The position numbers and the translations under genes are program-made. From Verrucomicrobiales bacterium (GTDB taxonomy: Bacteria; Verrucomicrobiota; Verrucomicrobiia; Methylacidiphilales; JAAUTS01), in contig JAIRPN010000009.1 in assembly GCA_031256975.1 (NCBI GenBank), positions 1-64,000 on the forward strand: a stretch of 64,000 nt of DNA. The letters are read 5' to 3'. The stretch's first letter is position 1, and each line of letters opens with the position of its first letter. The notes beneath the pieces were generated by a model. It searched no databases. It saw only the letters and a program-made list of their open reading frames with translations, and had not been told where the DNA came from. Below are positions 8,816 to 57,011 of the stretch, one piece after another.

Positions 8816-11002
8816 ATGAACATTGAGTTAACCAGCCAGCAAATCACCAAGGCCAGCGGTTCCAATCTCGCCCTTTCATTCGTCTCCTTGTCCAAGGAAA
8901 AGAAACAGGCCATGACGGTGTTCTACGCCTATTGCCGCATCGCTGACGACATTGTCGATGACAAGAGCAAGTCGCGGGAACAAAAACTGGCCGACATCAA
9001 TTTCTGGCGCAAGGAAATCGCCGCCTGTTACGATGCCAACCTCAAGCCCGCCTCCGCGCTGGGCAACGAATTGCTCGACATCATCCGCCGCTACAACATC
9101 CCGCAGCAGCCTTTCCTTGACCTGCTCGACGGGGTGGAGATGGACATCGATAAATCCCGTTACGCCAACTTCGAAGAACTGTCTCTCTATTGTTACCGTG
9201 TCGCCAGCGCCGTCGGCCTGGTTTCCATCGAAATCTTCCAATACACCAACCCCAAGGCCAAGGAATACGCCGTCGCCCTGGGCATGGCCTTCCAGTTGAC
9301 CAACATCCTGCGCGACGTGCGTTTTGATTTCGACAAATACCAGCGCATCTACGTGCCGCAGGACGAAATGGCGGCCTTCGGCGTTAGCGAGGACGTCCTG
9401 TTCAGTGAAACGCCGCATGCCGGACGTGAAAGCTTCCTGCGCATGCAAGCCTACCGCGCCGAGCATTATTTCCAAAAGGCCGCCCGTCTGTTCCCGCATG
9501 CCGACCGCGCCAATTTTGTCGCCTCCGAACTGATGACCGAGGTGTACTATCGCCTGTTGCAAAAAATCCGCAAAAACGGTTACCGGATTCCGGTCGTGCC
9601 GATTCGCCTGAACAAACTGCAAAAACTCTCGGCAGTCCGTTACGCTAACCGCAAGGGGGCGGCCATCAACCGCACGGATCTGCGTCCGCCGCAAAAGGTC
9701 GTTGTTCTCGGCGGCGGCTACGCCGGACTCAGCGCGGCATTCCATCTCGCCGTTAGCGGTCACCAGGTGGAATTGTTCGAGGCCAAGTCCTATCTCGGCG
9801 GACGCGCCCACAGCTTCAAGGACGCGCACAGCGGCATTACCCTCGACAACAGCCAGCACGCGTTTTTCGGCTGCTATGATTCCTGCCTGGAAATTCTCGA
9901 TTTGCTTGGGGTCCGTCACAAATTGGCCTGCCAAAATGGCATCGAGGTTCCCTACCTCGACCGTGACGGCACCCGTTCCTCACTCAAGGCCGCCAATTAT
10001 CCGGCCCCGTTCCACCTGCTCGACGGTATCCTCGGCTTCAAGGCGCTAACCGCGCAAAATTGTTTTGAAGTGGTAAAACTCGGCGTGTTGCTGCGTTTCG
10101 GCTTCCGCCCTTACAGCGACGAAAACGCCGGCAAGTGGTTGCGCCGCCTCGGCCAAAGCGCCAACACCATCCGTTGCCTGTGGGAACCCTTCTGCCTCGC
10201 CGCCTTGAACGAAGGCATCGGCACCGCCAATGCCAAGCTGTTGTACCAGACCATCTCCCGCTGCCTGCTTGGTTCTAAACAGGATTCCAGCATCTACATG
10301 AGCAAGGTGGGCCTGAGCGAACTGTTCAGCCCCGAACTCGACCAATTCCTCAAGGCAGTCGGCTCAAAAATCCATGTTAACAAAGGCGTAAAGGAAATCC
10401 TGTTCGACAACGACAAGGTCAATGGCATCAAACTCACCAATGACGAAGTAATCACCGCCGACCTGTATGTCAGTGCCATCCCCTTCTCGGCATTGCGTGC
10501 ACTGTTGCCACAAAACTCGCCGTTAGCGTCCCAGTTAAACCAGATCAAAACCTCGCCGATTCTGTCGGTTCATCTGGAAACCGATTGTCCGATCACCGGC
10601 AATGATCCCTTCGTCGCCCTGCTGGATTCCCCGGTGCAATGGATTTTCAACCGTAGTGAATTGTCCGCTGAACGAAAAACTCACCTGCACAGCCTGGTCA
10701 TTAGCGCCGCCGGGCAATTCATCGACATGCCCAACAAGGAGTTGATCGACTTGCTGTGGGCCGAGATTAATCATTACTTCCCCGCCACCAAGGAAGGGAA
10801 AATCCTGCACCAGATCGTGTACAAATCCCGCGACGCCACCTTCGCCTCGATACCGGGAATCGAGCGTTTCCGCCCCGGCGCCAAGACCCAGTGGTCCAAC
10901 TTCTTCCTCGCCGGCGACTGGACCCAGACCGAGTTGCCTGCCACCATCGAAGGCGCCACTCTTAGCGGCAGAAATGCAGCTAAGACAATCTCCCTGCTAT
11001 GA
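8816..11002 (+). CDS. Fused presqualene diphosphate synthase (HpnD) - hydroxysqualene dehydroxylase/amine oxidase (HpnE)
   Basis: N-terminal half YAYCRIADDIVDD / FQLTNILRDVRFDFDKYQRIYVPQDE; C-terminal half KVVVLGGGYAGLSAAFHLAVSGHQVELFEAKSYLGGRAHSF. One continuous ORF. Confidence 0.9.
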   Translation: MNIELTSQQITKASGSNLALSFVSLSKEKKQAMTVFYAYCRIADDIVDDKSKSREQKLADINFWRKEIAACYDANLKPASALGNELLDIIRRYNIPQQPFLDLLDGVEMDIDKSRYANFEELSLYCYRVASAVGLVSIEIFQYTNPKAKEYAVALGMAFQLTNILRDVRFDFDKYQRIYVPQDEMAAFGVSEDVLFSETPHAGRESFLRMQAYRAEHYFQKAARLFPHADRANFVASELMTEVYYRLLQKIRKNGYRIPVVPIRLNKLQKLSAVRYANRKGAAINRTDLRPPQKVVVLGGGYAGLSAAFHLAVSGHQVELFEAKSYLGGRAHSFKDAHSGITLDNSQHAFFGCYDSCLEILDLLGVRHKLACQNGIEVPYLDRDGTRSSLKAANYPAPFHLLDGILGFKALTAQNCFEVVKLGVLLRFGFRPYSDENAGKWLRRLGQSANTIRCLWEPFCLAALNEGIGTANAKLLYQTISRCLLGSKQDSSIYMSKVGLSELFSPELDQFLKAVGSKIHVNKGVKEILFDNDKVNGIKLTNDEVITADLYVSAIPFSALRALLPQNSPLASQLNQIKTSPILSVHLETDCPITGNDPFVALLDSPVQWIFNRSELSAERKTHLHSLVISAAGQFIDMPNKELIDLLWAEINHYFPATKEGKILHQIVYKSRDATFASIPGIERFRPGAKTQWSNFFLAGDWTQTELPATIEGATLSGRNAAKTISLL

Positions 11003-11009
11003 CTTCTGA

Positions 11010-12677
11010 ATGAAAAAGTTTTTTTCAGTTAGACAGATTGGTTCTGATGGCAGTCAAAATTTAAAACTGATTTTGCTCTTCTTATTAATCTCATTGTTTG
11101 GTTTTATTCTCTCGATCACCTTGGGCAGGGTTCCCTTTAAAGCACACATTGTCTTTTATTATTTGTTTTTTCATTATGAAATTTGGATGAGTCTGTTAGG
11201 CGCCATCATAGGTTGCGCCGCAGTTCTTTATCTCCATTGCCATAAAGCATATCTGCCCTTGAAAATACCCTGCTTTAGTTGGCCCCAAGTCATTTGCATT
11301 GGCATATTGACCCTGTTGTTTTGTTGGTGGGGATCCCATTATATTTATTTAAAATATCCGCTCTCCATGGATGAATATGCCCCCCTGTTCCAAGCCAAGA
11401 TTTTTGCCGCGGGACACATCCGGGGACAGATTCCGCCGGAATTGATTCCCTATGCCAAGGCATTGACACCGGTGTTCACCATATACGACTCCACAACGCA
11501 CAGCGTGATGGAGTTTTACCTGCCCGTACATGCATTGCTTCTCTCCGGGGCTCTTTTATTGGGAGACCCTGCCTTGCTGAATCCAATATTATTGGGAGCT
11601 GCAGTCCCACTTATTTTTCAAATTGCCAGACAATGGAAACCAGACTCTGTTTATTTGCCTTTCTGGGCCGTGGTACTCCTGGTTGCCAACAACCAAATTT
11701 TGATTACCAGTATGAGCAATTATTCCATGACCGCTCATATGTTTTTGAATTTGCTCTGGCTCTTTTGCTATATCCAACCGAATCCGCGATGGTTCGTTGC
11801 CGTCCCTTTGATTGGGGCCCTCGCAATAGGACTGCACCAGCCCCATTGCCATGTCTTATTTGTCGCCCCATTTTTATTCAGACTATTATTAGAAAAAAAA
11901 TGGCAAAAGGTTCTTTACGCAGGATTCGTGTATTCCGCCGCATTGATCTTCTGGTTATACTGGATTGGCCTGACCCGTTCAAATGAATCAAACCAACAAA
12001 CCGTAGCTTGCTTTGGATTTCCCGGCATCCTGCAATTCATAATACAATTGATCAATTTATGTATTTTCACCAACTGGATGCCCTTCGTTACCCTGCCTTT
12101 ATTATTTATCGCCTTACGCAACTTCAAGGCTGCTGATCCTGTCACCCGGGATTTGTTCTACGGTTTGGGATTAACCATCGTTTTTTACTTTTTCTTTCTT
12201 CTGGATCAAGGACATGGCTGGGGATATCGTTATTTAAATCCAGTATTGGGTAATGTTCTGCTATTATCCTCGTTGGGTTTAGTCAAATCTTCCGAAAAGA
12301 CAGCTTTGTGGTCCCGTATGACACTTTGCGCCATTTTGATAGCGTTCTTTATCCAACTTCCAATACGTTGTTTTGAAGTGCGCCAATTTGTGCAAAAATT
12401 CGCCCTCCCTTATCAAAAAATAAGTAAATTGGATGCTGATTTTGTTATTATTGATTCTTCCAATATCTGGTACGGAAATGAACTGGTACGCAATGATCCT
12501 TACTTTCAGAATCGTCCCGTGCTTCTGCTAAATCAATACTTATCAGAAGAAAATCTGAAACAGCTTCATAGCCGATCATCTAAAATTAAAACACTTCATT
12601 ATGATGATTTAATAAGATTGGGGCTACCGCCCGGACGCAATGTTACAGCACATTTTAATATTCCAAAAAAAACTTAA
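11010..12677 (+). CDS. Polytopic membrane glycosyltransferase-like protein
   Basis: 555 aa, multiple TM helices, GT39/GT-C-like acidic loop YPLSMDEYAPLFQAKIF; AT-rich. Confidence 0.65.
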   Translation: MKKFFSVRQIGSDGSQNLKLILLFLLISLFGFILSITLGRVPFKAHIVFYYLFFHYEIWMSLLGAIIGCAAVLYLHCHKAYLPLKIPCFSWPQVICIGILTLLFCWWGSHYIYLKYPLSMDEYAPLFQAKIFAAGHIRGQIPPELIPYAKALTPVFTIYDSTTHSVMEFYLPVHALLLSGALLLGDPALLNPILLGAAVPLIFQIARQWKPDSVYLPFWAVVLLVANNQILITSMSNYSMTAHMFLNLLWLFCYIQPNPRWFVAVPLIGALAIGLHQPHCHVLFVAPFLFRLLLEKKWQKVLYAGFVYSAALIFWLYWIGLTRSNESNQQTVACFGFPGILQFIIQLINLCIFTNWMPFVTLPLLFIALRNFKAADPVTRDLFYGLGLTIVFYFFFLLDQGHGWGYRYLNPVLGNVLLLSSLGLVKSSEKTALWSRMTLCAILIAFFIQLPIRCFEVRQFVQKFALPYQKISKLDADFVIIDSSNIWYGNELVRNDPYFQNRPVLLLNQYLSEENLKQLHSRSSKIKTLHYDDLIRLGLPPGRNVTAHFNIPKKT

Positions 12678-12713
12678 TTATAGAGGTAAAATCGACAGTA
12701 AAAATTCAATCAT

Positions 12714-13390
12714 ATGATTCCATTTTCCAAAATAAACTATCTCATACGTCCCACTTTTTTAGAACCAATTTTGGGGCGGTTAATAAGAGCTCTGGCCTTA
12801 AAACAATGGAATAAAAAAAGAATTGTTCCACCTCCCGATCAAATAAAGCATGCTATTATTAAGAATACCGCATCTATATTCACCAATCCCTTACTAATCG
12901 AAACTGGAACTTTTTTTGGTGATACTACATACAGTGTTTCAGATTCTTTCCAAAAAATATATACCATCGAACTTAGCCCATTCTTAGCCCATTCTTAGCC
13001 CAAAAAGCTCAAAAACGTTTCCAAAATTATCCTAAAATTACCGTAATAAATGGAGATAGTGGCCTTATGCTTAGCCAATTATTACCGAAGATTACCTTAC
13101 CTGTAATTTTCTGGTTGGATGCACATTATTCACGTTCAGTTACAGCCAAGGGAGCCAAAGAGTCTCCTATTATATTTGAATTGAAGGCAATATTCGAACT
13201 CTGCAATACCCCATGGATCATACTCATAGATGATGCCAGACTTTTCGGATATGCCCAAGACTACCCGTCAGTTGAAGAAATAATCGATCTGATCAAACAA
13301 TGCGGCCTAAATTGCCAATTAACTGTTTCCGATGATATTATTAAAATAATGCCAATGTCTGTTAACTCTCACGATATTGATCATATTTGA
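12714..13390 (+). pseudogene. Methyltransferase-like gene interrupted by an 11-bp tandem duplication (frameshift)
   Basis: ORFs 12714-12998 and 13067-13390 become one ORF (..IETGTFFGDTTYSV..IELSPFLAQKAQKRFQNYPKITVINGDSGLMLSQL..) if one 11-bp copy of cttagcccatt is removed. Confidence 0.75.
12972..13002. repeat. 11-bp tandem repeat (cttagcccatt), 2 full copies plus a 9/11 partial copy
   Basis: cttagcccatt-cttagcccatt-cttagccca read directly. Confidence 0.95.
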
Positions 13391-14072
13391 ATAAAAAATC
13401 CTTTTTTATCCATATTTTATCGGATTCTTGAACTATTCCATTTGTAATAAGATGATTCACGGTGGCGTATTCGTAAAAATCATTTTTTTGAAGTAATTCC
13501 CTCAGCAACTCATAATTTCCATTGATACCAATTGATACCTCCATTTGGATCAGGACACACCTAGACCACATATTCCCCATCCCCTCCAGTGCTTGAGGTT
13601 CTGCCCCTTGTAAATCAAGTTTAATAAACAAATTGGAGCCTTGAATAGGAATTTGATCCAATCTTTTTGCCAAAACCTTAAAACTGGGACGGATTTTATT
13701 GAAAACGTGTAATACTGTGCAGGAGGTATCGTCATTAGCAGGCTGGCTAAGCTCCAATGCAGTTTCTTCACTCCACAATGCGGCCTCAACGACCTTATAG
13801 CCTGCCCGGCGGAGTGTTTGTGCACAAAATGGATTGGGTTCCACGCAAACCAAGTCCGCATCAGGCAAACTGGTCCGCATTAACGAAGCAAATTCTCCAA
13901 CATTGGCCCCTCCGTCAATAATTCCATCTATGGGGAGCTTTTGTATAATTTCAAAAGTCATCGCATGACGTGTCCATATCTTTGATATTCGAGATAAAAT
14001 TCTGCGCACCAAACCAATCCTCAAAAGAAAATGAATCAACCGAAAAGTCGTTATATATAAACATTTTGTCAT
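13362..14072 (-). CDS. FkbM family methyltransferase
   Basis: IDGIIDGGANVGEFASLMRTSLPDADLVCVEPNPFC; LFIKLDLQGAEPQALEGM. Confidence 0.85.
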   Translation of the reverse strand: MTKCLYITTFRLIHFLLRIGLVRRILSRISKIWTRHAMTFEIIQKLPIDGIIDGGANVGEFASLMRTSLPDADLVCVEPNPFCAQTLRRAGYKVVEAALWSEETALELSQPANDDTSCTVLHVFNKIRPSFKVLAKRLDQIPIQGSNLFIKLDLQGAEPQALEGMGNMWSRCVLIQMEVSIGINGNYELLRELLQKNDFYEYATVNHLITNGIVQESDKIWIKKDFLFKYDQYRES

Positions 14073-15076
14073 AAATCAATCGACAATAGTTCCTCTAACC
14101 AGTCGCACCAGATTTGTAATCCTTCATATGGATCACTCTGTTTGATCGTTTCCAATTCCACCGCCATTTTTCCTGAAAAACCAGAGGTTAAAACAGTTCT
14201 GCCGGCAGCCAAATAGTTCCAAATCTTGGAAGGGAACAATGCTCGGCGAATTTTTGGATGCGCAGCAGCCAGTAAAATCTCCGAGGAAAGACAGGCCTCA
14301 GTCAAGTCTTCTTCTCTCTGAAAAGAAGGTCCTGTTTGAATCCAAGAGGGAAGCCTTTTCATTCCTATCCCATCACCCCTGACACTAATCGTATACCCGT
14401 CGTTATGTAATTTTTTGCAAAGCTTGATAAATGCAACGACATCATGTGCATACCCCAAATTGCCAGCGTAAAGAGCGGTACGTTCCTTGGGAGGAAGTGT
14501 GTCTGTAAATGATAACGTGGCCCAGTTCCGAATAACTTTGGAATTATGTTCTTGATAACCTAGATTGCTGGATATTTTTATAACATGATTCCATTTTTTA
14601 AGGGATCTATTCCAAAACGCAGAAACAAACCAAAGCCAGGCAAATGGCAACGGAACAATGCTTCCCAGCAGTTCCGGGTAATAATCCTGCAACCAATAAA
14701 TCGAAACTGCCTTTTTTTTATGAATTATGGCCTGTAAAGCAATCGTAACTGGTGGAGCGGATGTCACTATAACCACATCTCCAGTTTGAACTTGAGATTT
14801 TATGTAATTAGCAAACGCATTTTTAACAGAATAATATTCCTTGAATTCCTGATACAAATTACCTCTTTTGCCAATGAAATGATCCAAATAAATCGGTGCA
14901 ACTGCCGGCTTAGGGCGCAAAGAGGAGCGATAAGTTCCCTTGCCACCAACCAAACAAACCTGATACCCCCGCTCATGCATCGCTTGGGCGAGTTGTTCCG
15001 CATAGATTCCAGTCGGTGCCACATCAGGCCACACGAATTGGTTAAGAATATGCAATGTTTTCGTGTTTTTGTTCAC
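14069..15076 (-). CDS. Glycosyltransferase (GT4-like)
   Basis: LNQFVWPDVAPTGIYAEQLAQAMHERGYQVCLVGG; ALYAGNLGYAHDVVAFI. Confidence 0.8.
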   Translation of the reverse strand: MNKNTKTLHILNQFVWPDVAPTGIYAEQLAQAMHERGYQVCLVGGKGTYRSSLRPKPAVAPIYLDHFIGKRGNLYQEFKEYYSVKNAFANYIKSQVQTGDVVIVTSAPPVTIALQAIIHKKKAVSIYWLQDYYPELLGSIVPLPFAWLWFVSAFWNRSLKKWNHVIKISSNLGYQEHNSKVIRNWATLSFTDTLPPKERTALYAGNLGYAHDVVAFIKLCKKLHNDGYTISVRGDGIGMKRLPSWIQTGPSFQREEDLTEACLSSEILLAAAHPKIRRALFPSKIWNYLAAGRTVLTSGFSGKMAVELETIKQSDPYEGLQIWCDWLEELLSIDL

Positions 15077-15996
15077 GATTTTGGAAAATTTCTCAACCTG
15101 ATCTGAAAGGCCTCACGATGATATCTTAAATTCGCCTGGGAAATCATACCCGTCAGAAGCGTAAAAAGAGAAAGATTCATAAGGGCGGCAGCCAGAATAG
15201 CCAGAGGGAATCTCCCAACCAGTCGCGTTTGAAAATATTCACAGATAGGTGGCAATCCGGCTACGAGACCTGCAATAAAAAAACAAGCTGAAAAAATAGC
15301 AAAAAAGACCAGCGGTTTGTAATCGCGGAAAAGGAAAACCAGATTTTTAAGGATCTTAAACCCATCGGTTACCGTTTTGAGCTTTGAAACCGTTCCTTCC
15401 TCACGTTGACGAAACGGAATATTGATTTCTTCCCTGGAAAAGCCCTTGTCAATTGCTTGAATTGTTAGCTCCATTTCCAATTCAAACCCCCTGGCCAAAA
15501 CCGGGACATTCTTATAAAAACGTTTGGAAAATAATCTCAGTCCAGAGAACACATCGGCAGTCTTTTGCTTAAAAGCCACATTAACAAACCAAGCAAATAA
15601 ATTGCTACCCCATTGATGCATGGGTCTAAATACATTGCCATCACCGGTCGAGCAACGAATACCTGTTAACATATCGCATGGGTTATTTTGCCAACGCTCC
15701 AACAGTAATTTAGCTCCTTCGGCAGGGTAGCTACCGTCTCCATCAACCATAATAATCAAATCCGTCTGAATTTCCTCAAACGCCTTAAGCATGGCTTGGG
15801 CCTTCCCTTTGCGTGGTTCATTTATAACTTGTGCCCCAATCTTTTTTGCCAACACCTCAGTTTCATCATCTGAAGCATTATTAATCACAACAATATTGCA
15901 ATCGGGAAAGGTTTGACGGAATTCTTGAATAACCTTGCTAATGGCCCTGGCTTCATTGTGACAAGGGATTACAAGTGTTAATGTCGGTATAATCAT
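15073..15996 (-). CDS. Family 2 glycosyltransferase (dolichyl-phosphate mannosyltransferase-like) with C-terminal TM helices
   Basis: LVIPCHNEARAISKVIQEF; IIMVDGDGSYPAEGAKLLLERW. Confidence 0.9.
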   Translation of the reverse strand: MIIPTLTLVIPCHNEARAISKVIQEFRQTFPDCNIVVINNASDDETEVLAKKIGAQVINEPRKGKAQAMLKAFEEIQTDLIIMVDGDGSYPAEGAKLLLERWQNNPCDMLTGIRCSTGDGNVFRPMHQWGSNLFAWFVNVAFKQKTADVFSGLRLFSKRFYKNVPVLARGFELEMELTIQAIDKGFSREEINIPFRQREEGTVSKLKTVTDGFKILKNLVFLFRDYKPLVFFAIFSACFFIAGLVAGLPPICEYFQTRLVGRFPLAILAAALMNLSLFTLLTGMISQANLRYHREAFQIRLRNFPKS

Positions 15997-16083
15997 GTTT
16001 TACTCCCCCAATAGCTGACACTCGATCATTATTAAAACCAATTTCTCCCCCGATTTAACGGTGAATAACTCGGTGCCAACACA

Positions 16084-16788
16084 TCAAATTTGACCTAACT
16101 CGTGTACAACCGCAGCAACAAAATTCGTCAAACTATGGCGTGCAGGCTCCAACGGAGAAAGGAATTTTTTCAATTCGCCAATCCGCCACGGATGGGTCAT
16201 CAAGTAAAGGGCCATTTTCGCCGGAGTGGTTTGACCTTTGGCTTGGTTGTAACCGTATGCCAGAACTTTCGACGGCACGGTTTCGTTGGCTTCGTCGCTA
16301 ATGACGCGGATTCCCAGAATATCCGCTCCATAACTGCGAACCACCGAGGCAACCGCTGACATTTCCATATCAACCAACTGGCAACCGGTTTGTGCCGCTA
16401 ATGACGATTTTTCTTCCGGCGTGGAAATCACCCGTTCCGCGGTGTGCAAGGCGGCGATATCATAACCGGGAATCAAGCGGATAAAATCAAACAGATCGCG
16501 GGAGCTATATCGGTCCGCAACGATCACCTGCCCCTTTTTCAATTCGGAATTCAGAGCCCCGGCAAAACCGGCCAGCACGAAGATATCCGCATGCTCCTGG
16601 GCCAGCACCTTTTTGACACGCTGTGCGGCCATCTCCATTCCCATGCCGGTAATCACCACCAGCACGGAAACATTGTCATAGGCGCCTTGGTAGCAAGGCA
16701 CGCCGGAAATGTTGATTTTCTTCCTGTTGGCCAAGCCGGCGACAAACTCACCGGCTTCATACTCGGTCGGGAAAGCAATGGTTAACAC
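16084..16788 (-). CDS. Nucleoside phosphorylase superfamily protein (possibly hopanoid-associated, HpnG-like)
   Basis: VITGMGMEMAAQRVKKVL; LAGFAGALNSELKKGQVIVAD; VDMEMSAVASVVRSYG; near hpnC/hpnDE. Confidence 0.75.
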   Translation of the reverse strand: MLTIAFPTEYEAGEFVAGLANRKKINISGVPCYQGAYDNVSVLVVITGMGMEMAAQRVKKVLAQEHADIFVLAGFAGALNSELKKGQVIVADRYSSRDLFDFIRLIPGYDIAALHTAERVISTPEEKSSLAAQTGCQLVDMEMSAVASVVRSYGADILGIRVISDEANETVPSKVLAYGYNQAKGQTTPAKMALYLMTHPWRIGELKKFLSPLEPARHSLTNFVAAVVHELGQI

Positions 16789-16842
16789 GGTATTCGATCT
16801 AAAGCATCAGTATTCCAAAGAATAAGACGGTGTCCACTTTTT

Positions 16843-19323
16843 TTACGGCACTTCAACCGGCTCCAGCTTCCAAATATTCCGGGCATAATCGTTGATCGAA
16901 CGGTCACTGGAAAACTTGCCCAGGCGCGCCGTGTTCAGCAGCGACATCTTCGCCCAGCGCAAGCGGTCACTGTAAACCTTGTCCAGTTCATCCTGCGCCC
17001 GGCAATAATCGGCGTAATCCGCCAATACCATGAACGGGTCACCGCCGCCCAACAGGCTGTGCATCAGGGGCGCCAAGGTGTCATGCGGATCGTTCGGGAT
17101 GAAATGCCGCGATCCCAGCCAGTCGACCACGGCCCGCAGTTCCTCGTTGGAATTATAGTAATCGTAAGGATTGTAGCCCTTTTGCTTGAGTTCCTCGACT
17201 TCTTCAACCTTGAGGCCGAAGATGAAAATATTGTCCTTACCCACCTCTTCCAGAATCTCGACATTGGCACCGTCGAGGGTCCCCATGGTTACCGCACCAT
17301 TCAGGCCGAGTTTCATATTGCCCGTACCGGAGGCCTCCTTGCCTGCCGTGGAGATTTGCTCGGAAACATCGGCGGCAGGAATGATCTGTGACGCCAAGGA
17401 CACACGGTAATTCGGCATGAATACCACCTTGAGCTTGCCCTTGATCCGTTCATCGTTGTTGATCACCGCGGCAACCGAGTTGATCGCCTTGATAATGCAT
17501 TTGGCCACCTGATAACCGGGGGCCGCTTTGGCGCTAAAGATAAAGACACGCGGATTCATCTGGTAATCGGGGTTCTGCAGCAAGCGACGGTACAGGGTCA
17601 GGATATAAAGCAAGTTCAGGTGCTGGCGCTTATATTCATGCAGGCGTTTGATCTGCACGTCGAAAATGGCCTCCGGGTTGACAAGCACCCCGCACTCACG
17701 CTCGATCACCTTGGCCAGATGAGCCTTGTTCACCAGCTTGATATCGAGGATTTGTTGCAGCACCTCTTTCTCATCGGCGATTTTTTCCAAATCGTGCAAT
17801 TTGTCGAGGTCGGTGATCCATTCGTCACCAATGCGACTCGTGATAAATTCACTCAGCGGTTGGTTGATCGACAGCAGCCAGCGGCGCGGTGTCACGCCAT
17901 TGGTCACGTTGTTGATTTTGTTCGGCCACAGTTCGTCGAAAGACTTGAACAGTTTTTCCTTGAGCAGCTTGGTATGCAATTCCGCCACGCCATTGACCGA
18001 GAAACTGCCGACCACCGCCAAATGCGCCATGCGCAGCATTTGCACCGGCCCCTCCTCGATCAACGAAAGTTCACGCTTCTTGGCGTCATCACCGGGCCAC
18101 TTTGCCTCCACTTCCTTCAGGAAACAGCCGTTAATTTCAAAAATAATCTGCAAATGGCGGGGCAATACCTTGCCAAACAGCGGCACGCTCCAGCGCTCCA
18201 GCGCTTCAGGCATCAGGGTGTGATTGGTATAGGCGAAAATCCTGGTAACCATGCCCCAAGCCTTGGTCCACGGCACATCGTATTCATCAAGCAACAGGCG
18301 CATCAATTCTGCCACCGCCACCGCCGGATGGGTGTCATTCAACTGGACCGCGATCTTCTCCGGCAACAATTCGATATTGTCCCCGTGCTCACGATGAAAG
18401 CGACGCAAAATATCGCGCAGGGAACAGGCAACGAAGAAATATTGCTGGATCAGGCGCAATTCCTTGCCGTTTTCCGTGCTGTCGTTCGGGTACAAAACCT
18501 TCGAGATCACCTCGCCAAGGTTCTTGTTTTGCAAGGCCTCGACATAACCTCCCGCGTTGAAAGCCTCGAAATCCAATTCTTCCTTGGCATGGGAACGCCA
18601 CAGACGCAAAAAATTGACCGAGCTGCCGTCATAACCACAAATCGGCGTATCGTGCGGAACCCCGACCACCGTGCGGGTGTCCACCCACTTGGCACGGTAA
18701 TTCCCCTTCTCGTCAAAAACATTCTCCACCCGTCCGAACAATTGCACTTCCTGGCTGGTCTCCGAACGGACAATTTCCCAAACGTCGCCGAATTTCATCC
18801 ATTCGTCCGGACGTTCCACCTGATAACCATTCTTGAACTCCTGCTTGAACAAGCCGAATTCGTAATTGATGCCGTAGCCAACCGCCGGCAAATCGAGGGT
18901 TGCCAGCGAATCAAGGAAGCAGGCTGCCAAGCGGCCAAGGCCGCCGTTGCCCAGCGCCATGTCATATTCCTCGTCGCGGATCTCGCGCATGCCCAAGCCG
19001 AGGTCTTCCAAGGCGCGGGTTGCCTCATCGAAGATGCCGATGTTGATCAAATTATTGCCAAGCAGGCGGCCCATCAGGAATTCCAGCGACAGGTAATAAA
19101 CACGACGAACCTTTTGCTTGGCGTGCTCGCCCTGCGTGGCGATCATGCGTTCAATGATCCGTTCCTGGGTTGTCCTTGACAGTGAAAACCACCAGTCGTG
19201 CCGTGAGGCAGTGGAGAGGTCACGCGCCAATTCATAACGCAAATTGCGCAGGATGGCATTGCGGACGGGTTCGGTATGCAGCAGGGAAGGAACGATATTT
19301 TCGGTTATTTTTTTCTTACGCAT
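16843..19323 (-). CDS. glgP: Glycogen/starch phosphorylase
   Basis: [63 protein letters not shown] (PLP site). Confidence 0.97.
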
Positions 19324-19439
19324 AATCCGGCTTTCTTGAAAACCTCTGCATTATTCTAACTATGCCACCAAAAGCAAGGTATTATCCCGATTAATTTCAG
19401 GAGTGATTGCAAGAAATTAAGCCGACGAAACAACCGTGA

Positions 19440-20879
19440 TTACTTGGATTCGACCTGGATGACCACTCGCACCGAAGTGTTAGGATCACCATTGGCGAGC
19501 TGGATCGACGGAGGCAGGTTCAATTTGACCTGCCGCTCATAATTGCCTGCCTTGTTAATGCCCAACAAATCCACGGGAAACACTTGCAGGATACCGCCGG
19601 GTTTCCACGAGGAATCGCGCACCACAACCTTGACGGTTTCCGGAATCAAACGGATTTCCGTCACCCGCAGGAATGGTCTGAGGCCACGAACCGACGGCGA
19701 TTGCACCGCGAGGTCCATGGTCCGGGGATTTTCCAATCTGACCCGGATCACCGCCGGTTCAAAGCGGTCGACCACCGAGCCATCCGGCAGGTTCTTGACC
19801 ATGTTGTCGCTCAGGGTGAAATCAGCCACCCCGGGTACCGCGCGCGACAAATCCAGCTGGATGTTCAAATTACGTCCCGCAATATCCGCTTTCTGCGGAA
19901 TGCGCAAATCCATATTGACCGGTTTGGTCGGCATGTTGGAAATGTACATATTCGACGGCACGTTGATAAACTCGACACTTGCCGTGGCCCCCACCGACTT
20001 GGTGTCCTGCAGGGAACTGCGGTAATAACGTTCGGTGGCATAGGAACCGATAATGGCCAAGACCAGCGCCACAGCCCACATGGCGCCCGAAATCAAGCGA
20101 TGACGCCGCCGGTTCTCATTCTGGAACTTCACGCCCAGCAACCCCAACAGGCGGTCCTCCATCTCATCAACCGAATTGGCGATTAGCGGCTGGATATTGC
20201 CCTGATGAACGTAGGAAACCACCCCGCGCTGCTCGGAAACCACCAGCACCGCTGCGTCGCAACGCTGGGTCAGCCCAATGGCGGCCAGATGACGGGTCCC
20301 CAACTCCACGTCGGCTCCCTCGGCGGTTGCCAGCGGCAAAACTGCGCCAACACGCACAATCTTTCCCTGCCGCACAATCACCGCGCCATCATGACGGGGC
20401 GCATAGGTGTTGAAAATCGACAGGATCATCGAGCGGTTCAAGCGAACCTCCACATCCTCGCCGCCACTGACCAACGATTCCACCTCGAACTGGCGGGGAA
20501 ATACAAACAAGGCACCGCGCCGCAGCTTCGCCAAATCCCACAGTGCCTGGGCCATTTCCTTGACAATTTCCTCCGACTGGAAGGTCCGGGGCCGGAACAG
20601 ATTGCCACGGCTGGCCGACTGGTAAATGCGGGTCAACTCCGGCAAAAAGGACAGAAACAGCGCGATGCCGATAAGGAACAGCAAAGGAATAGTTAACAGA
20701 ATGGCAAAAGGCAGCTTGCACCAAACCACAATGGCGGCAAAAAAACCGAAAATCAGCGCCGAGTAAATCAGGTTGAGCAAACGAGGGTAGGCCAGCAACC
20801 ACCCCATCAGGATACGCAACACCAATGTACACAGGACGATGTCCAAGGCGTGCCGCAACAAATCAACACTCGTTCGCAT
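19440..20879 (-). CDS. Diadenylate cyclase (CdaA-like, DisA_N/DAC domain) fused to a YbbR/CdaR-like domain
   Basis: N-terminal TM region, DAC motifs RHDGAVIVRQGKIVRVGAVLPL and GTRHLAAIGL, then YbbR-type repeats (VEFINVPSNMYI...VRVRLENP). Confidence 0.85.
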   Translation of the reverse strand: MRTSVDLLRHALDIVLCTLVLRILMGWLLAYPRLLNLIYSALIFGFFAAIVVWCKLPFAILLTIPLLFLIGIALFLSFLPELTRIYQSASRGNLFRPRTFQSEEIVKEMAQALWDLAKLRRGALFVFPRQFEVESLVSGGEDVEVRLNRSMILSIFNTYAPRHDGAVIVRQGKIVRVGAVLPLATAEGADVELGTRHLAAIGLTQRCDAAVLVVSEQRGVVSYVHQGNIQPLIANSVDEMEDRLLGLLGVKFQNENRRRHRLISGAMWAVALVLAIIGSYATERYYRSSLQDTKSVGATASVEFINVPSNMYISNMPTKPVNMDLRIPQKADIAGRNLNIQLDLSRAVPGVADFTLSDNMVKNLPDGSVVDRFEPAVIRVRLENPRTMDLAVQSPSVRGLRPFLRVTEIRLIPETVKVVVRDSSWKPGGILQVFPVDLLGINKAGNYERQVKLNLPPSIQLANGDPNTSVRVVIQVESK

Positions 20880-20906
20880 ATGGCAGGACTGCAGCCAGCC
20901 TAGACT

Positions 20907-22376
20907 TTAGGAAGTTCCGGGCAAGACATAACCGACAGTCACCTTGCCGTCCTCGATTTTCTGTATCTGGTAGTTGCGTGAAATATTGAACCCGCGCATT
21001 ACTTCCTGGATTGAACCATAAAGCTGCAACCACAAGCGATTGCCAACCGCGCTCGGCAATACCGCATCGCCAATGTACACGTCACACTTGTAGAAAGTCA
21101 CCGCGTTTTCATTGGCCTGGAAATACAGATCGTAGCGCAACAGGAAATTCTTGCCGAAACAGGAAGTCTGCTGCAAGAAGCGCAACTTGGTCGGCAGTGC
21201 GTAGAAACGGAGTTTTTCCATCGACACCCCCAAGGTACCGGACAGCGTGTCCTGGCGGAACGAGACCAGCTTGTCCAATGCCGTATTGATTTCGGCATTA
21301 TCCAAGGTCACTGACAAATCCGATTTCTTCAGGTCTTTCAGCGTGTCGCCCTGGGAGATGTACAACAGCTTGTACAACTTGTCCAACGACACTTCTTCGG
21401 GCGCCCCGGTTGCCGGAGCCTTGGCTTCCTGCGCCGTGTATTCGACCATCAGGCCCGGCGCATTGAAGACGCGAATCACATAAAACGCGTAAATCCCCAT
21501 GAAAATCACCGAGACCAGCAGCATGATAAACTCAAGGAACCCGCTGATGCGGCTTTGGAATACCGCATAATAGAAACAGAACAAAGCGACCAAGGCGCTG
21601 GTAACCAAGAAAATCACCACGATGGTCATGGTCTGCTGCGAGGCCACGGTGTTCGAGATATTCACCGGTTTAAGCTGCTCGATGAAAGTCTTCAAGCGAT
21701 CTTCACGGCGCTGTTCGTAAATCTGGCTGATCTCCTGCTTGGTATGCCATTGCCCCTCGAACAACACCTTGCCTTCCTTGAGCAGGGCTTGGCGGTCAAG
21801 CCAAGGCTTCAAATACTGGTCCACTTGCGAAGCCAGGTCGGAATACTGCGACTTGAATTGCTCACCGGCGGCCAGCTTGGCATTCAAATCGTCCAGCTTG
21901 TAGTCATTGGCATCAACAAATTGCTCGGTAGTGAACTCCTTGAAAGCCTTGTCCTTCTCCTTGACCTTTTCCTCCTGCTGGCTCTTCCGGCCATCCAGAA
22001 CGGCATGGTACTTGGTCAGGTCGACAGTCAGGGATTTCTTCAACTCCGGATAACTCTTAATCAGGTTATCGTACTGCGAGATGATGTTGTGAATGTTGTC
22101 GTCCGGCAAATTCTGGTCTTCATCGACATAATACGGAACGATATCGATCAGCATGTTCAACTGGCGGGCCGTCCGCTTGTCCTCTTCGTCGGTAATGAAC
22201 AGTGCCGGGTCCTTTTTTTCCACCACCTTGGCACGAATCACCTGCAGTCTTCCGTCTCCGGTTTTGACAATGGCATAGACATTGGTTTGGGGTTTGTCAC
22301 CATTATCAGCGTCCTGCGCAAACGCCCAAGGAGCCACCAACATCAAAAGCAAGCCGATCGACAAAAATCTTTTCAT
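20907..22376 (-). CDS. Secreted/membrane hypothetical protein with central TM segments
   Basis: Signal peptide MKRFLSIGLLLMLVAPWAFAQ; two central hydrophobic helices; no family recognised. Confidence 0.65.
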   Translation of the reverse strand: MKRFLSIGLLLMLVAPWAFAQDADNGDKPQTNVYAIVKTGDGRLQVIRAKVVEKKDPALFITDEEDKRTARQLNMLIDIVPYYVDEDQNLPDDNIHNIISQYDNLIKSYPELKKSLTVDLTKYHAVLDGRKSQQEEKVKEKDKAFKEFTTEQFVDANDYKLDDLNAKLAAGEQFKSQYSDLASQVDQYLKPWLDRQALLKEGKVLFEGQWHTKQEISQIYEQRREDRLKTFIEQLKPVNISNTVASQQTMTIVVIFLVTSALVALFCFYYAVFQSRISGFLEFIMLLVSVIFMGIYAFYVIRVFNAPGLMVEYTAQEAKAPATGAPEEVSLDKLYKLLYISQGDTLKDLKKSDLSVTLDNAEINTALDKLVSFRQDTLSGTLGVSMEKLRFYALPTKLRFLQQTSCFGKNFLLRYDLYFQANENAVTFYKCDVYIGDAVLPSAVGNRLWLQLYGSIQEVMRGFNISRNYQIQKIEDGKVTVGYVLPGTS

Positions 22377-22594
22377 GAAAATCTCCAAAATTGCAAAAAA
22401 TACAAAGGACGAATTTAAAGGCTGACCGTCAATGGTCAATCTTTACTAGCAACTAATTTTTAATCGTTTAATTCACTCCTCTTTACCTTGCCAATCATCA
22501 ATCCATTCGATAAGACGCATAATCCGTCAAAATATTGGGGATTTTTACAATTTTTCGCCCCTTGCGGCAAAAACTGGTCTACATTCAAAGTTTC

Positions 22595-25500
22595 ATGTCC
22601 ACTCACGATTTCATCAGACTGCGCGGCGCACGGGAAAACAACCTCAAGGGCTTTGACCTGGATATTCCGCTCAATCGCTTTATCGTCGTCACCGGGCTCA
22701 GCGGTTCGGGCAAATCCTCCCTCGCCTTCGATACCATCTACGCCGAGGGACAACGCCGTTACACCGAGACCTTCTCGCCCTACACCCGCCAGTTCCTCGA
22801 GCGCATGAACAAGCCCAAGGTCGACGCCATCGAGGGCATCCCGCCGGCCATCGCGTTAAGCCAGGTCAATTCAGTGCGCACCTCGCGCAGCACGGTCGGC
22901 TCGATGACCGAGGTTGCCGACCACCTGAAATTGTTGTTCCCTCTGCACGCCGAACTGCACAGCCCAGTGAGCGGGCAACGCATCCAGCCGTGGACGGCGG
23001 GACAGGTCGCCGACGAATTGCTGGCCAAGCACGCCGACAGCCAAGTCCTGATCACCTTCGAGGTCCCCTTCCCGCCCAAGACCAAATGGCCGGAAATCGT
23101 CGCCTTTCTGCAAGCCCAGGGTTTCATCCGTATTTACGCTGGCGGCAAGACCCTGCGTATCGACGAACTTCACTCTTCGCCCTTCACTACTCACTCCTCC
23201 ATCCCCGTGGTGGCCGACCGCCTCAGCTCCAGCGCCGACAACAAATCCCGCCTGATCGAGGCCATCCAGTCCGCCTTTCAGTACGGCAAGGGCCTCATCA
23301 AGCTGATCCTGCCGGACCATCAAATCCTGTCGTTTTCCAACAAATACCTCGACCCTGCCGACCATCGCGAATACACCGCCCCCAGCTCCTCGTTGTTTTC
23401 CTTCAACAACCCGATCGGCGCCTGCCCGCTGTGCAACGGCTTCGGCCGCACCATCGACATCGATTACGACCTCGCCCTGCCCGACCGGAATCTCAGCATC
23501 GACGACGGCGTGGTGAAATGCTTCAGCGGCGAGACTATGCAGAACTGCCAAAAGGACCTGCTCAAGGCCTGCCGCAAGCACAAGATTCCCACCGACATCC
23601 CCTTCTGCCAGCTCCCCAAAAAGCAACAGGACTTCGTCATCCACGGCGAAATCAGCGAGGGCAAGAACCTGGAGGAATCCTACGACGACGGCGAATGGTA
23701 CGGCGTGAAGGGCTTCTTCCGCTGGCTGGAAATGCGTACCTACAAAATGAACGTGCGCATCCTGCTGGCCCGTTACCGCGCTTACAACGAATGTTCCGCC
23801 TGCCACGGCAACCGCTTCAAGCCCGAGACCCTGCTGTGGACACTGAACGGCAGGAACCTCGCGCAAATCAACAGCACGCCCATCCGCGACCTTGAACCCT
23901 GGTTCAGCGCCATCGCGCCCAAGGACGAATCCGCCAACATCCTCCTCCACCAAATCACTTCGCGCCTGCGTTACCTCAACCAGGTCGGCCTCGGTTACCT
24001 CACCCTCGGACGCGCCAGCCGCACCCTGAGCGGCGGCGAACTGCAACGCGTCAACCTCACCACCTGCCTCGGCACCTCGCTCACCGGCACCCTGTTCGTC
24101 CTCGACGAACCCAGCATCGGCCTGCACCCGCGCGACACCATTCAACTCACCAACGTGCTGCAAAGCCTCTCCCTCCAGGGCAACACCGTCATGGTGGTCG
24201 AGCACGATGGCACCATGATCGCCGCCGCCGACCACCTGATTGAACTCGGCCCCCGCAGCGGTGCCGGGGGCGGCAACTTGGTCCTCAACGCCAGTGTTGA
24301 TGAATTGAAGATGGCAGATGGAAGATGGAAAATGAAAAAAACGGCGGCAGCCAAATCTGCCGTCTCCCGTCTGCCATCTTCCATCACCCTCCAATACCTC
24401 AGCGGTGAACGCAGCATCCCATTGCCCGAAAAACGCCGCCCGGTCACGGGTGCCACCCAGTGGCTCGAATTCCAGGGCGCAGGCAAACACAACCTGCACG
24501 ACCTCGATTTCCGCATCCCGCTGCACACCTTCACCGCCATCACCGGCGTCAGCGGCTCGGGCAAATCCACCCTGGTCAACGAAATCATCTACAAGCACCT
24601 GTCCCTGCACTTCAACCGCAACGTCAGCGAAGCCGGAACACTCCGGAAACTCAGCGGCGCGCAACAGCTCGACGACGTATTGATCATCGACCAGAGCCCG
24701 CTGACCCGCAGCGCGCGCAGCACCCCGCTGGTCTACGTCGGCGCCTACGACCAGGTGCGCGAACTGTTCGCCATGACCGAGTCGGCACAACAGCTCGGCC
24801 TCAACGCCGGCGCCTTCTCCTTCAACAGCGGCACCGGACGCTGCCCGCGCTGCAGCGGCACCGGCTACGAGAAAATCGAAATGCAATTCCTCTCCGACGT
24901 ATTCGTCAAATGCCCCGTCTGCGAAGGCCGCCGCTTCCAAGACCACGTCCTCAAGGCCCAATACCGCGGCAAATCCATCGACGACATCCTCAACATGACC
25001 GTCAGCGAGGGGATTAAATTCTTCAACGCAGAGACGCCGAGGACGCAGAGTACACCGAAAGCAATTAAATCATCCCAACAGATCATCTCCGCATTGCAAC
25101 TCCTGGAACAAGTCGGCTTGGGTTATCTGACTCTCGGACAACCTACCAATCAACTCTCCGGCGGCGAAGCCCAACGCCTGAAACTCGTCACCGAACTAAT
25201 CCAAACCCAAGACACCTCTCAAAAAAAATCTCCGCGCCTCCGCGCCTCCGCGGTTAACCAAAAATCCAAGCTCATCATCCTCGACGAACCCACCACCGGC
25301 CTGCACTACGAAGACATCCGCGTGCTATTGCAGGTGCTGCAATCGCTGGTCGACCGTGGCAACACCCTGATCGTCATCGAGCACAACATGGAAGTGGTCA
25401 AATGCGCCGACCACATCCTCGACCTCGGCCCCGAGGCGGGCGACCAAGGCGGCCAAATCATTGCCACCGGCACCCCGGAGGACATCGCCGCCAACAGCAA

Positions 25501-28294
25501 AAGCCGTACCGCCCCCTACCTTGCCCAAGCCCTGGCCTCACCGGGTTCTGCTCCTCAGCCTACCGGGTTGAGCTCCTCAACCCACCGGGTTCAGTCACAA
25601 AATCCGCCTGCAATTAGCTCCAAGACCATCTCCATCCGTGGTGCCAAACACCACAACCTGAAGAATATCGACCTCGATATCCCCCGCAACAAGATGGTGG
25701 TTCTCACCGGACTAAGCGGTTCCGGCAAATCCTCCCTGGCCTTCGACCTCCTCTTCTCCGAAGGCCAGCGCCGCTACCTCGACTGCCTCAACAGCTACGC
25801 CCGCCAGTTCATCGAGCAATTGGAAAAACCCCGCGTCGATTCCATCACCGGCATCCCGCCCGCTGTCGCCATCGAGCAACGCACCACCCGCGGCGGCGGC
25901 AAGAGCACCGTCGCCACCGTCACCGAACTCTACCACTTCATGCGCCTGCTCTATGCGAAGCTTGGCGTCCAGCATGACCCCGCCAACGGCGAACCCTGCA
26001 TCCAGCAAACCCCGCGCGAAATCGTGGCGCAAATCAGGCGGGAACTCGGCAAGGGCGAAGCCCGCCTGCTCGCCCCGCTGGTGCGCGGGCGCAAAGGCAT
26101 TTACACCGAACTGGCCTCCTGGGCGCAACGCAAGGGCTATCCCGAACTGCGTGTCAACGGCAAGTTCACCACCCCTGACAAATTCAAGGCCCTCGACCGC
26201 TACCGCGAGCATAACATCGACCTGGTGCTCGGCACCATCAACGCCAAAACCCCGAACCTGGAAATCCTCATCAACCAAGCCATCGAGTACGGACATGGCA
26301 CAATCATGGTAGATGGACGATTGAAGATGGATGATGTTAAAAATCCGCCGAAAGCGCATAAATCCAAAATCGGCCATCTTCCATCTGCCATCTCCCATAC
26401 TTACAGCACCCAACTCTATTCTCCCAAGACCGGAAAATCCTTCGAGCCGCTTGATCCGCGCCTGTTCTCCTACAACAGCCCCCACGGCTGGTGTCCCAAG
26501 TGCCAGGGTTACGGCACTGTCGCCGACATCAAGACCGACGACCGCCTCAGCGAATTGGAACAGGAACAGCAACAGGAACTGATCCGCGAATATCTCGACA
26601 GCGACGAGATCAAGGCCTGCCCCGAATGTCATGGCAGCCGCCTCAACGAAACCGCCCGCGCCGTCCACTTCGCCGGAAAACCGATCACCGAACTCAACGC
26701 CATGAACGTGCAGGACTTCCTGCGCTTCTTTGGCAGACTCAAGTTCAAGGGCCGCGAGGCCGCCATCATCCGCGACATCAAGCCGGAGATCGAGCAGCGC
26801 CTCAAGTTCCTCAACCACGTCGGCCTTGATTATCTCAACCTCGACCGCGCCGCCCCCACCTTGAGCGGCGGCGAATCCCAGCGCATCCGCCTCGCCGCGC
26901 AACTCGGTTCCAACCTCCAAGGCGTGCTCTACGTCCTCGACGAACCCACCATCGGCCTGCACCCGCGCGACAACGACGAACTCATCAAAACCCTGCGCGA
27001 ATTGCAGGAACGCGGCAATTCACTGGTCATCGTCGAGCACGACGAGGACACCATGCGCCAGGCCGACCACATCATCGACCTCGGCCCCGGCGCCGGGGTC
27101 AACGGTGGCCACATCATCGCCCAAGGCACTTGGCAACAACTCACCAAGAACAAACAATCCCTCACCGGCAGACTCCTCGGCACCCCGCTCAAACACCCCC
27201 TCAAAGGCAGCCGCCGCAAAATCGACAAAACCACCGAATGGCTCGCCATTGACGGCGCCCGCGCCAACAACCTCAAGAACCTCAAGGTGGAACTGCCTCT
27301 CGGCAAATTCATCGGTATCAGCGGCGTCAGCGGCAGCGGCAAATCCACGTTGATGCACCAGGTTATCATCCCCGCCGTCACCGAAGCGCTAACCACCAAA
27401 AAAAACCTCCGCGTCCTCCGCGCCTCTGCGGTGAATTCAAACAAATGGGACACCATCGACGGCTTGCACAACATCACCAAGCTGATCGAGGTCGACCAAT
27501 CCCCCATCGGCAAAACCAGCCGCAGCACGGTTTGTACTTACATCGGCCTGATGGATCACCTGCGCAAACTGATGGCTCAAGTCCCCCTCGCCAAGACCCG
27601 CGGCTTCAGCGCCAGCCATTTCTCCTACAATGCGGGCGCGGGCCGCTGCCCCGCCTGCATGGGACAGGGCATGCTCAAGATCGAGATGAACTTCCTCCCC
27701 GCCACCTACGTCCCCTGCGACAAATGCGGCGGCAAACGCTGGACCGAACCGGTGCTCGAAGTCACCTATCGCGACAAGAATATCTACGACATCCTCGCCC
27801 TCAGCATCGACGAAGCCGTGGAGTTCTTTGACGGGCAACCCAACATTCAAGTCCCCCTGCGCCTGTTGCAGGAAACCGGGTTGGGCTACCTCACCCTCGG
27901 CCAAACCAGCCCCACCCTCAGCGGCGGCGAAGCCCAGCGCATCAAACTGGTCACCGAGTTGGCAGGCATCCGCCTGCAGGAACAACGTCACCGCCTCAGC
28001 ACCCGCGCCGCGCTAACAGGCAAGACCCTGTACCTGCTGGAAGAACCCACCGTCGGCCTGCACCTGGCGGACGTGCAAAAGCTGCTGGAAGTGATTCATA
28101 AACTGGTCGACAGCGGCAACACCGTCGCCGTCATCGAGCACCACCTCGACCTGCTTGCCGAGTGCGATTACCTGCTCGACCTGGGCCCCGAAAGCGCCGC
28201 GGACGGCGGCCGCATCATCGCCAGCGGCACCCCGGAACAAGTCGCCAACAGCAAGAAAAGCCACACTGGCAAATATCTCCGCAAGGTCCTGTAG
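22595..28294 (+). CDS. uvrA: Double-length excinuclease ABC subunit A (two UvrA units in one polypeptide)
   Basis: About 1,899 aa from MSTHDFIRLRGARENNL; four P-loops (VTGLSGSGKSS, ITGVSGSGKST, LTGLSGSGKSS, ISGVSGSGKST), four LSGGE signatures, CxxC zinc fingers. Confidence 0.95.
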   Translation: MSTHDFIRLRGARENNLKGFDLDIPLNRFIVVTGLSGSGKSSLAFDTIYAEGQRRYTETFSPYTRQFLERMNKPKVDAIEGIPPAIALSQVNSVRTSRSTVGSMTEVADHLKLLFPLHAELHSPVSGQRIQPWTAGQVADELLAKHADSQVLITFEVPFPPKTKWPEIVAFLQAQGFIRIYAGGKTLRIDELHSSPFTTHSSIPVVADRLSSSADNKSRLIEAIQSAFQYGKGLIKLILPDHQILSFSNKYLDPADHREYTAPSSSLFSFNNPIGACPLCNGFGRTIDIDYDLALPDRNLSIDDGVVKCFSGETMQNCQKDLLKACRKHKIPTDIPFCQLPKKQQDFVIHGEISEGKNLEESYDDGEWYGVKGFFRWLEMRTYKMNVRILLARYRAYNECSACHGNRFKPETLLWTLNGRNLAQINSTPIRDLEPWFSAIAPKDESANILLHQITSRLRYLNQVGLGYLTLGRASRTLSGGELQRVNLTTCLGTSLTGTLFVLDEPSIGLHPRDTIQLTNVLQSLSLQGNTVMVVEHDGTMIAAADHLIELGPRSGAGGGNLVLNASVDELKMADGRWKMKKTAAAKSAVSRLPSSITLQYLSGERSIPLPEKRRPVTGATQWLEFQGAGKHNLHDLDFRIPLHTFTAITGVSGSGKSTLVNEIIYKHLSLHFNRNVSEAGTLRKLSGAQQLDDVLIIDQSPLTRSARSTPLVYVGAYDQVRELFAMTESAQQLGLNAGAFSFNSGTGRCPRCSGTGYEKIEMQFLSDVFVKCPVCEGRRFQDHVLKAQYRGKSIDDILNMTVSEGIKFFNAETPRTQSTPKAIKSSQQIISALQLLEQVGLGYLTLGQPTNQLSGGEAQRLKLVTELIQTQDTSQKKSPRLRASAVNQKSKLIILDEPTTGLHYEDIRVLLQVLQSLVDRGNTLIVIEHNMEVVKCADHILDLGPEAGDQGGQIIATGTPEDIAANSKSRTAPYLAQALASPGSAPQPTGLSSSTHRVQSQNPPAISSKTISIRGAKHHNLKNIDLDIPRNKMVVLTGLSGSGKSSLAFDLLFSEGQRRYLDCLNSYARQFIEQLEKPRVDSITGIPPAVAIEQRTTRGGGKSTVATVTELYHFMRLLYAKLGVQHDPANGEPCIQQTPREIVAQIRRELGKGEARLLAPLVRGRKGIYTELASWAQRKGYPELRVNGKFTTPDKFKALDRYREHNIDLVLGTINAKTPNLEILINQAIEYGHGTIMVDGRLKMDDVKNPPKAHKSKIGHLPSAISHTYSTQLYSPKTGKSFEPLDPRLFSYNSPHGWCPKCQGYGTVADIKTDDRLSELEQEQQQELIREYLDSDEIKACPECHGSRLNETARAVHFAGKPITELNAMNVQDFLRFFGRLKFKGREAAIIRDIKPEIEQRLKFLNHVGLDYLNLDRAAPTLSGGESQRIRLAAQLGSNLQGVLYVLDEPTIGLHPRDNDELIKTLRELQERGNSLVIVEHDEDTMRQADHIIDLGPGAGVNGGHIIAQGTWQQLTKNKQSLTGRLLGTPLKHPLKGSRRKIDKTTEWLAIDGARANNLKNLKVELPLGKFIGISGVSGSGKSTLMHQVIIPAVTEALTTKKNLRVLRASAVNSNKWDTIDGLHNITKLIEVDQSPIGKTSRSTVCTYIGLMDHLRKLMAQVPLAKTRGFSASHFSYNAGAGRCPACMGQGMLKIEMNFLPATYVPCDKCGGKRWTEPVLEVTYRDKNIYDILALSIDEAVEFFDGQPNIQVPLRLLQETGLGYLTLGQTSPTLSGGEAQRIKLVTELAGIRLQEQRHRLSTRAALTGKTLYLLEEPTVGLHLADVQKLLEVIHKLVDSGNTVAVIEHHLDLLAECDYLLDLGPESAADGGRIIASGTPEQVANSKKSHTGKYLRKVL
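24310..24387. repeat. Mini-element of the GATGGAAGATGGCAGATGG word family inserted in frame in uvrA
   Basis: gatggcagatggaagatgg ... ccgtctgccatcttccatca; translated DGRWKMKKTAAAKSAVSRLPSS. Confidence 0.8.
25024..25060. repeat. 'CGCAGAGACGC' word-family insertion in frame in uvrA
   Basis: caacgcagagacgccgaggacgcagag translated NAETPRTQS. Confidence 0.75.
25222..25260. repeat. 'CTCCGCGCCTCCGCGGT' word-family insertion in frame in uvrA
   Basis: aaaaaaaatctccgcgcctccgcgcctccgcggttaacc translated KKSPRLRASAVN; same word at 27395-27435. Confidence 0.75.
26311..26395. repeat. Second GATGGAAGATGG-family mini-element in frame in uvrA
   Basis: gatggacgattgaagatggatgatg ... atcggccatcttccatctgccatctccc. 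Confidence 0.8.
27395..27435. repeat. 'CTCCGCGTCCTCCGCGCCTCTGCGGT' word-family insertion in frame in uvrA
   Basis: aaaaaaaacctccgcgtcctccgcgcctctgcggtgaa translated KKNLRVLRASAVN. Confidence 0.75.
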
Positions 28295-35676: not shown

Positions 35677-35713
35677 AGGCGCTAACCGCGAAGTTCACGG
35701 TTAGCGCCTTTTT
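35677..35713 (+). terminator. Intrinsic terminator built from an inverted pair of the RTTAGCG motif
   Basis: aggcgctaaccg-cgaagttca-cggttagcgcct then TTTT; perfect 12-bp stem. Confidence 0.92.
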
Positions 35714-51211: not shown

Positions 51212-53830
<2,619 letters not shown>

Positions 53831-53948: not shown

Positions 53949-53986
53949 AAAAAAGACGCTAACCGCGATCCCGCGGTTAGCGTCTT
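53949..53986 (-). terminator. Intrinsic terminator of the class II RNR gene built from an inverted pair of the RTTAGCG motif
   Basis: aagacgctaaccgcg-atcc-cgcggttagcgtctt, perfect 15-bp stem; minus-strand exit is a T-run; about 30 nt after the stop codon. Confidence 0.93.
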
Positions 53987-54014
53987 CAAGAGGAATTTCG
54001 TTATTAGCGCCCAA

Positions 54015-57011
<2,997 letters not shown>

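Follow-up and report, generated by a model that had tools for sequence, protein, structure and literature searches.

The window, by which we mean the whole 64,000-nt stretch of Verrucomicrobiales DNA that was analysed, carries nrdJ on its minus strand (54015-57011) and, as the next downstream gene on the same strand, gyrB (51212-53716, with a likely ATG start at 53716 as read from the sequence). The upstream gene had been called a class II ribonucleotide reductase gene in an earlier, sequence-only reading of the window, and a match to NF005122 (1339.7 bits, cut-off 859) identified its product as this B12-dependent enzyme. The closest NrdJ records, at 86-89% identity, come from metagenome-assembled Verrucomicrobiales. 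Between the two genes, 28 bp past the nrdJ stop codon on the minus strand, lies a hairpin at 53953-53986. As read from the window, it is composed of AAGACGCTAACCGCG (53953-53967), the 4-nt loop ATCC (53968-53971) and CGCGGTTAGCGTCTT (53972-53986), giving 15 perfect Watson-Crick pairs, to which RNA folding added one G-U pair. On the transcribed minus strand, 53972-53986 forms the 5´ arm of the stem and 53953-53967 the 3´ arm, and the stem is followed by a U-tract of six T (53954-53949), also detected in the terminator scan. The minus-strand fold has a predicted energy of -28.6 kcal/mol (z = -5.25; 0 shuffles equally stable), and the hairpin was the top-ranked terminator-like site within 48-62 kb of the window. 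With a GC-rich stem and then a U-run 3´ of a stop codon, it has the features of an intrinsic (rho-independent) terminator and, judged from its sequence, probably acts as one, in which case it would separate gyrB from nrdJ. The sequence-only reading had described both the 15-bp perfect stem with CGCTAAC/GTTAGCG at its core and the minus-strand T-run after nrdJ, and both were borne out; its start at 53949 falls a few bases ahead of the stem, yet it does take in the U-run.

Both arms of the hairpin contain the same short word, which is CGCTAAC on the plus strand in the 3´ arm (53957-53963) and, inverted, GTTAGCG on the plus strand in the 5´ arm (53976-53982). A 12-bp motif is present in full in each arm, as CGCTAACCGCGA on the plus strand (53957-53968) and as its inverted partner CGCTAACCGCGG on the minus strand (53971-53982). 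These copies are separated by 2 bp, without overlap, and have a start-to-start spacing of 19. A third copy of the word, a minus-strand CGCTAAT at 54003-54009, lies in the gap from the nrdJ stop codon to the hairpin.

An abundant word throughout the genome

The word is not particular to nrdJ. The window has 82 copies of RTTAGCG, where shuffled sequences average 10.7, and in the whole genome to which the window belongs (G000; 2.76 Mb in 19 contigs, from an assembly that is 87% complete) GTTAGCG occurs 2,555 times compared to 625 for the reversed control. Positional analyses of the word covered 1.66 Mb, or 60% of the genome, with genes called by a simple purpose-written caller based on codon usage. 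Within these 1.66 Mb, the strongest words at every length from 6 to 12 were versions of CGCTAAYGGCGA, and CGCTAATGGCGA was seen 157 times against 0.2 expected. The motif profile comprises a G at -2, CGCTAAY and then graded G, R, Y, G and A, with nothing beyond, and the extended motif is approximately CGCTAAYGRYGA, or (G)NCGCTAAYGRYGA when the optional leading G is included. A graded profile of 12-14 bp such as this is typical of a protein-bound site. CGCTAAYGRYGA has 1,080 copies in G000 and its reversed control four. The density of CGCTAAY is 1.5 per kb in the 1.66 Mb, alike within and between genes, and the excess corresponds to the roughly one copy per kb along the chromosome that is looked for in an uptake sequence. 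We also noted an excess of the C-variant CGCCAACGGCGA in the same 1.66 Mb (40 seen, 1.1 expected), which suggests that this transition is tolerated by whatever reads the word.

Inverted pairs of the word at gene 3´ ends

We then considered pairs of the word in the 1.66 Mb. Convergent pairs (CGCTAAY...RTTAGCG) at a spacing of 19-20 numbered 30, where about two were expected under the assumption of random placement, and this spacing peak has no counterpart among divergent or same-direction pairs. The nrdJ hairpin is a typical member of the class. The zone from -10 to +80 bp relative to stop codons makes up 6.5% of the sequence and contains the centres of 24 of the 30, compared to 15.5% of all words, 9/60 divergent pairs and 20/87 same-direction pairs. 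The sequence-only reading had proposed placing inverted pairs relative to stop codons, and they proved to be far more frequent downstream of genes than the words in general. A T-run (at least 5 T in 8, on the strand of the gene) accompanies 62.5% of the 3´-end pairs compared to 17% of control 3´ positions, so that inverted pairs in likely terminators, as reported for uptake sequences, are a feature of this word as well. No intergenic pair of the spacing class was found between divergent genes. The window itself has a second inverted pair on the plus strand (35680-35706; spacing 20), about 30 bp past a stop codon at 35649 and with a T-run.

Across the whole of G000, 56 places have the same build as the nrdJ hairpin when either dialect of the word (see below) is allowed in each arm. 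The counts in four congeners are 38-60 each, and those in two further genera of the family are 0 and 3, although the excess in the congeners is only about threefold over a rough, density-based expectation that is itself not negligible. In some congener loci (L088-L107, L001-L003 and L039), we also observed convergent pairs of CGCTGAC at a spacing of 8, with GTCAGCG following 1 bp apart (six with the strict word, ten with a looser one).

Two dialects within one genus

Among 389 other genomes of the phylum, none has more than 14 copies of CGCTAAYGRYGA. We had considered whether the word is a conserved feature of Verrucomicrobia, and rejected this given its absence outside the genus. The four congeners instead carry the form CGCTGACGGTGA (756-1,101 copies in each; reversed control 0). 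The family's other two genera have 0-1 copies of this form, and in the DNA examined neither shows an iterated word of its own. The dialects, CGCTAACGGCGA in this species and CGCTGACGGTGA in its congeners, differ by one letter, a core transition. Such species dialects within a clade are known for the DNA uptake sequence (DUS) of Neisseriaceae (Frye 2013, PMC3630211).

The two forms replace each other in place. Alignments of G000 with congeners covered 108 kb (74.5% identity), and in them we examined the sites at which all other letters of the word match. At 68 of these sites, G000 has A at the variable core position where the congener has G, and at one site both have A. For control words with A at that place, the figures are 75% for a retained A and 18.5% for a change to G. 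Among the 66 swaps inside genes, 56 fall in the two frames where the change is silent, and 10 change the amino acid. A few copies of the presumed old dialect CGCTGACGGTGA that G000 keeps (11 compared to 0.4 expected) suggest, without proving, that the change ran from CGCTGAC to CGCTAAY.

One region of G000, C11:24001-36000 (L176), is repetitive and GC-rich (0.62-0.63 in 24-32 kb), and the density of CGCTGAC, the congener dialect, reaches 2.5 per kb there; the homologues of this region in congeners are mostly 64-73% identical. Recent import of this region from a congener, which the dialect and the higher GC might indicate, was not supported, as the homologues are repetitive and 64-71% identical over the main matches.

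Word-free DNA and the uptake machinery

The longest stretch without the word spans 29 kb (C4:211042-240000; L072-L073), contains phage portal and major head genes and is likely a prophage. The depletion in mobile DNA that is associated with uptake sequences is seen in this gap, the other gaps not being proven mobile. Within the window, 10707-27386 is poor in the word, with three copies, all ATTAGCG, and contains glycosyltransferase-like genes. The same region also holds core genes (encoding glycogen phosphorylase and DisA-like and UvrA-like proteins) and is therefore not simply an acquired island.

G000 encodes ComEC- and DprA-type proteins, two PilT/PilU-type ATPases, a PilB-like ATPase, a PilC/GspF-like protein, a secretin and 29 prepilin-like N-termini, and the machinery for uptake (type IV pilus, ComEC and DprA) is present. 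At least ComEC is also found in relatives without the word. Since competence genes are common in such relatives, they permit an uptake role for the word but do not prove it. There was no match above the cut-off to PF11773 (ComGE), a result that is uninformative on a ComP receptor.

Discussion

The excess of the word, the lack of an orientation bias, the dialects, the terminator pairs and the absence from a prophage match reported features of uptake sequences, and for this reason we consider DNA uptake to be the best reading. We propose, with a probability of about 0.75, that a DNA-uptake-sequence system arose independently in this Verrucomicrobiota genus, which would then be the third lineage known to have one, that one species changed a single core letter of its genome-wide word, with the old form replaced where it stood at many sites, and that inverted pairs double as terminators. 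We are fairly confident that the nrdJ terminator stem represents two abutting inverted copies of a genome-wide word with dialects, and that this word most likely serves as a DNA uptake sequence. In such a system, a putative extracellular receptor of the type IV pilus machinery would bind the word, released DNA of the same species would be taken up and recombined preferentially, and this biased import would keep the word abundant, with sister species carrying a dialect that has one core transition (CGCTGACGGTGA). Inverted pairs may have been kept in gene 3´ ends because they are also useful there as terminators.

Other explanations account for parts of these data. Taken by itself, the hairpin looks no different from an ordinary GC-rich terminator in which the word lies by chance, and at the nrdJ locus of three congeners (L001-L003) the hairpin is not conserved. 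However, the spacing class to which it belongs is about 16 times over expectation and the build recurs at many other places, such that coincidence is scarcely credible. The concentration of the 19-20 bp pairs at gene 3´ ends might instead indicate that the word is primarily a terminator element, with scattered single copies as by-products. Against this, called genes contain about 83% of the copies in the 1.66 Mb, and the pair class accounts for only about 2.4% of the words; because so few copies are in such pairs, the word is not mainly a terminator element, and this origin is very improbable.

An intracellular chromosome-maintenance signal, acting in recombination as Chi does or in segregation as KOPS does and merely reused by terminators, would also be an abundant, chromosome-wide word, and like Chi sites the word is missing from a prophage. 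The congener form CGCTGACGGTGA even bears a faint resemblance to E. coli Chi (GCTGGTGG). Chi and KOPS, however, are strand-biased, whereas the word shows no replication-strand bias (1,219 compared to 1,257 copies by orientation on the G-rich strand) even though GC skew is strong, with a correlation of -0.06 between word orientation and skew in 32 strongly skewed windows. We rejected identity with Chi or KOPS on this ground. A fast change of the word in one genus, together with its confinement there, is also a poor fit to a signal read by conserved enzymes, making a role in chromosome maintenance decidedly improbable. Lastly, the word might be a highly iterated motif comparable to HIP1 (GCGATCGC) of cyanobacteria, with no role in uptake and with its abundance maintained by a DNA methyltransferase or some other force. 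HIP1, which like our word is abundant within and between genes, demonstrates that abundant words not tied to uptake exist (PMC4390886), and for our word the preference in uptake and its receptor, the activity of the terminators and the direction in which the dialect changed are inferred from sequence. Yet HIP1 is palindromic and has a link to methyltransferases (PMC4390886), whereas the word in G000 is non-palindromic, has dialects and follows the graded 12-14 bp profile of a protein-bound site. In-place dialect swaps, absence from a prophage and terminator pairs are, moreover, reported hallmarks of uptake sequences (PMC3630211, PMC2397512). We consider a HIP1-like motif unlikely.

The DNA-uptake-sequence system that we favour resembles both known types. 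Like the neisserial DUS, the word is a non-palindromic word of 10-12 bp with thousands of copies and dialects that follow species and differ by one or a few letters (PMC3630211), forms non-overlapping inverted pairs tied to terminators (PMC3630211; PMC2397512) and is depleted in acquired DNA (PMC2397512). The sequence-only reading had called the inverted pair DUS-like, and the dialects, the swaps at aligned sites, the lack of strand bias and the absence from a prophage favour that view in the sense of a word that works like a DUS, as the motif differs from the neisserial one. The words are unrelated (the neisserial form is GCCGTCTGAA) and belong to different phyla, and the invariant CTG core of the GCCGTCTGAA family is absent from G000, where the core is CGCTAAY. 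CTGA does occur in both DUS and the congener dialect; since the word in G000 is without CTGA, we take this likeness to be a coincidence. The word is also more often intragenic than the DUS of N. gonorrhoeae, of which 35% is inside genes (PMC1939737).

In being mostly intragenic, the word is closer to the uptake signal sequence (USS) of Pasteurellaceae (65% intragenic in H. influenzae, PMC1939737), with which it also shares the lack of an orientation bias (PMC1939737), the occurrence of variants between clades and inverted repeats at terminators (PMC12616744). The two words are unrelated, 5´-ACAAGCGGTC being one of the forms in Pasteurellaceae (PMC1939737), as are the lineages, and a further difference is that our word carries no information outside the 14-bp motif.

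Two families, Pasteurellaceae and Neisseriaceae, are reported to have sequence-biased DNA uptake (PMC7811141), and a search of open-access papers found no report of uptake sequences in Verrucomicrobiota. If our reading is correct, the genus would add a third lineage, unrelated to these families, in which sister species use two dialects one core base apart, and would indicate that such systems arise repeatedly. It would also offer an independent test of the co-evolution of a genome-wide word and its receptor, and would allow natural transformation in Verrucomicrobiota to be approached from sequence.
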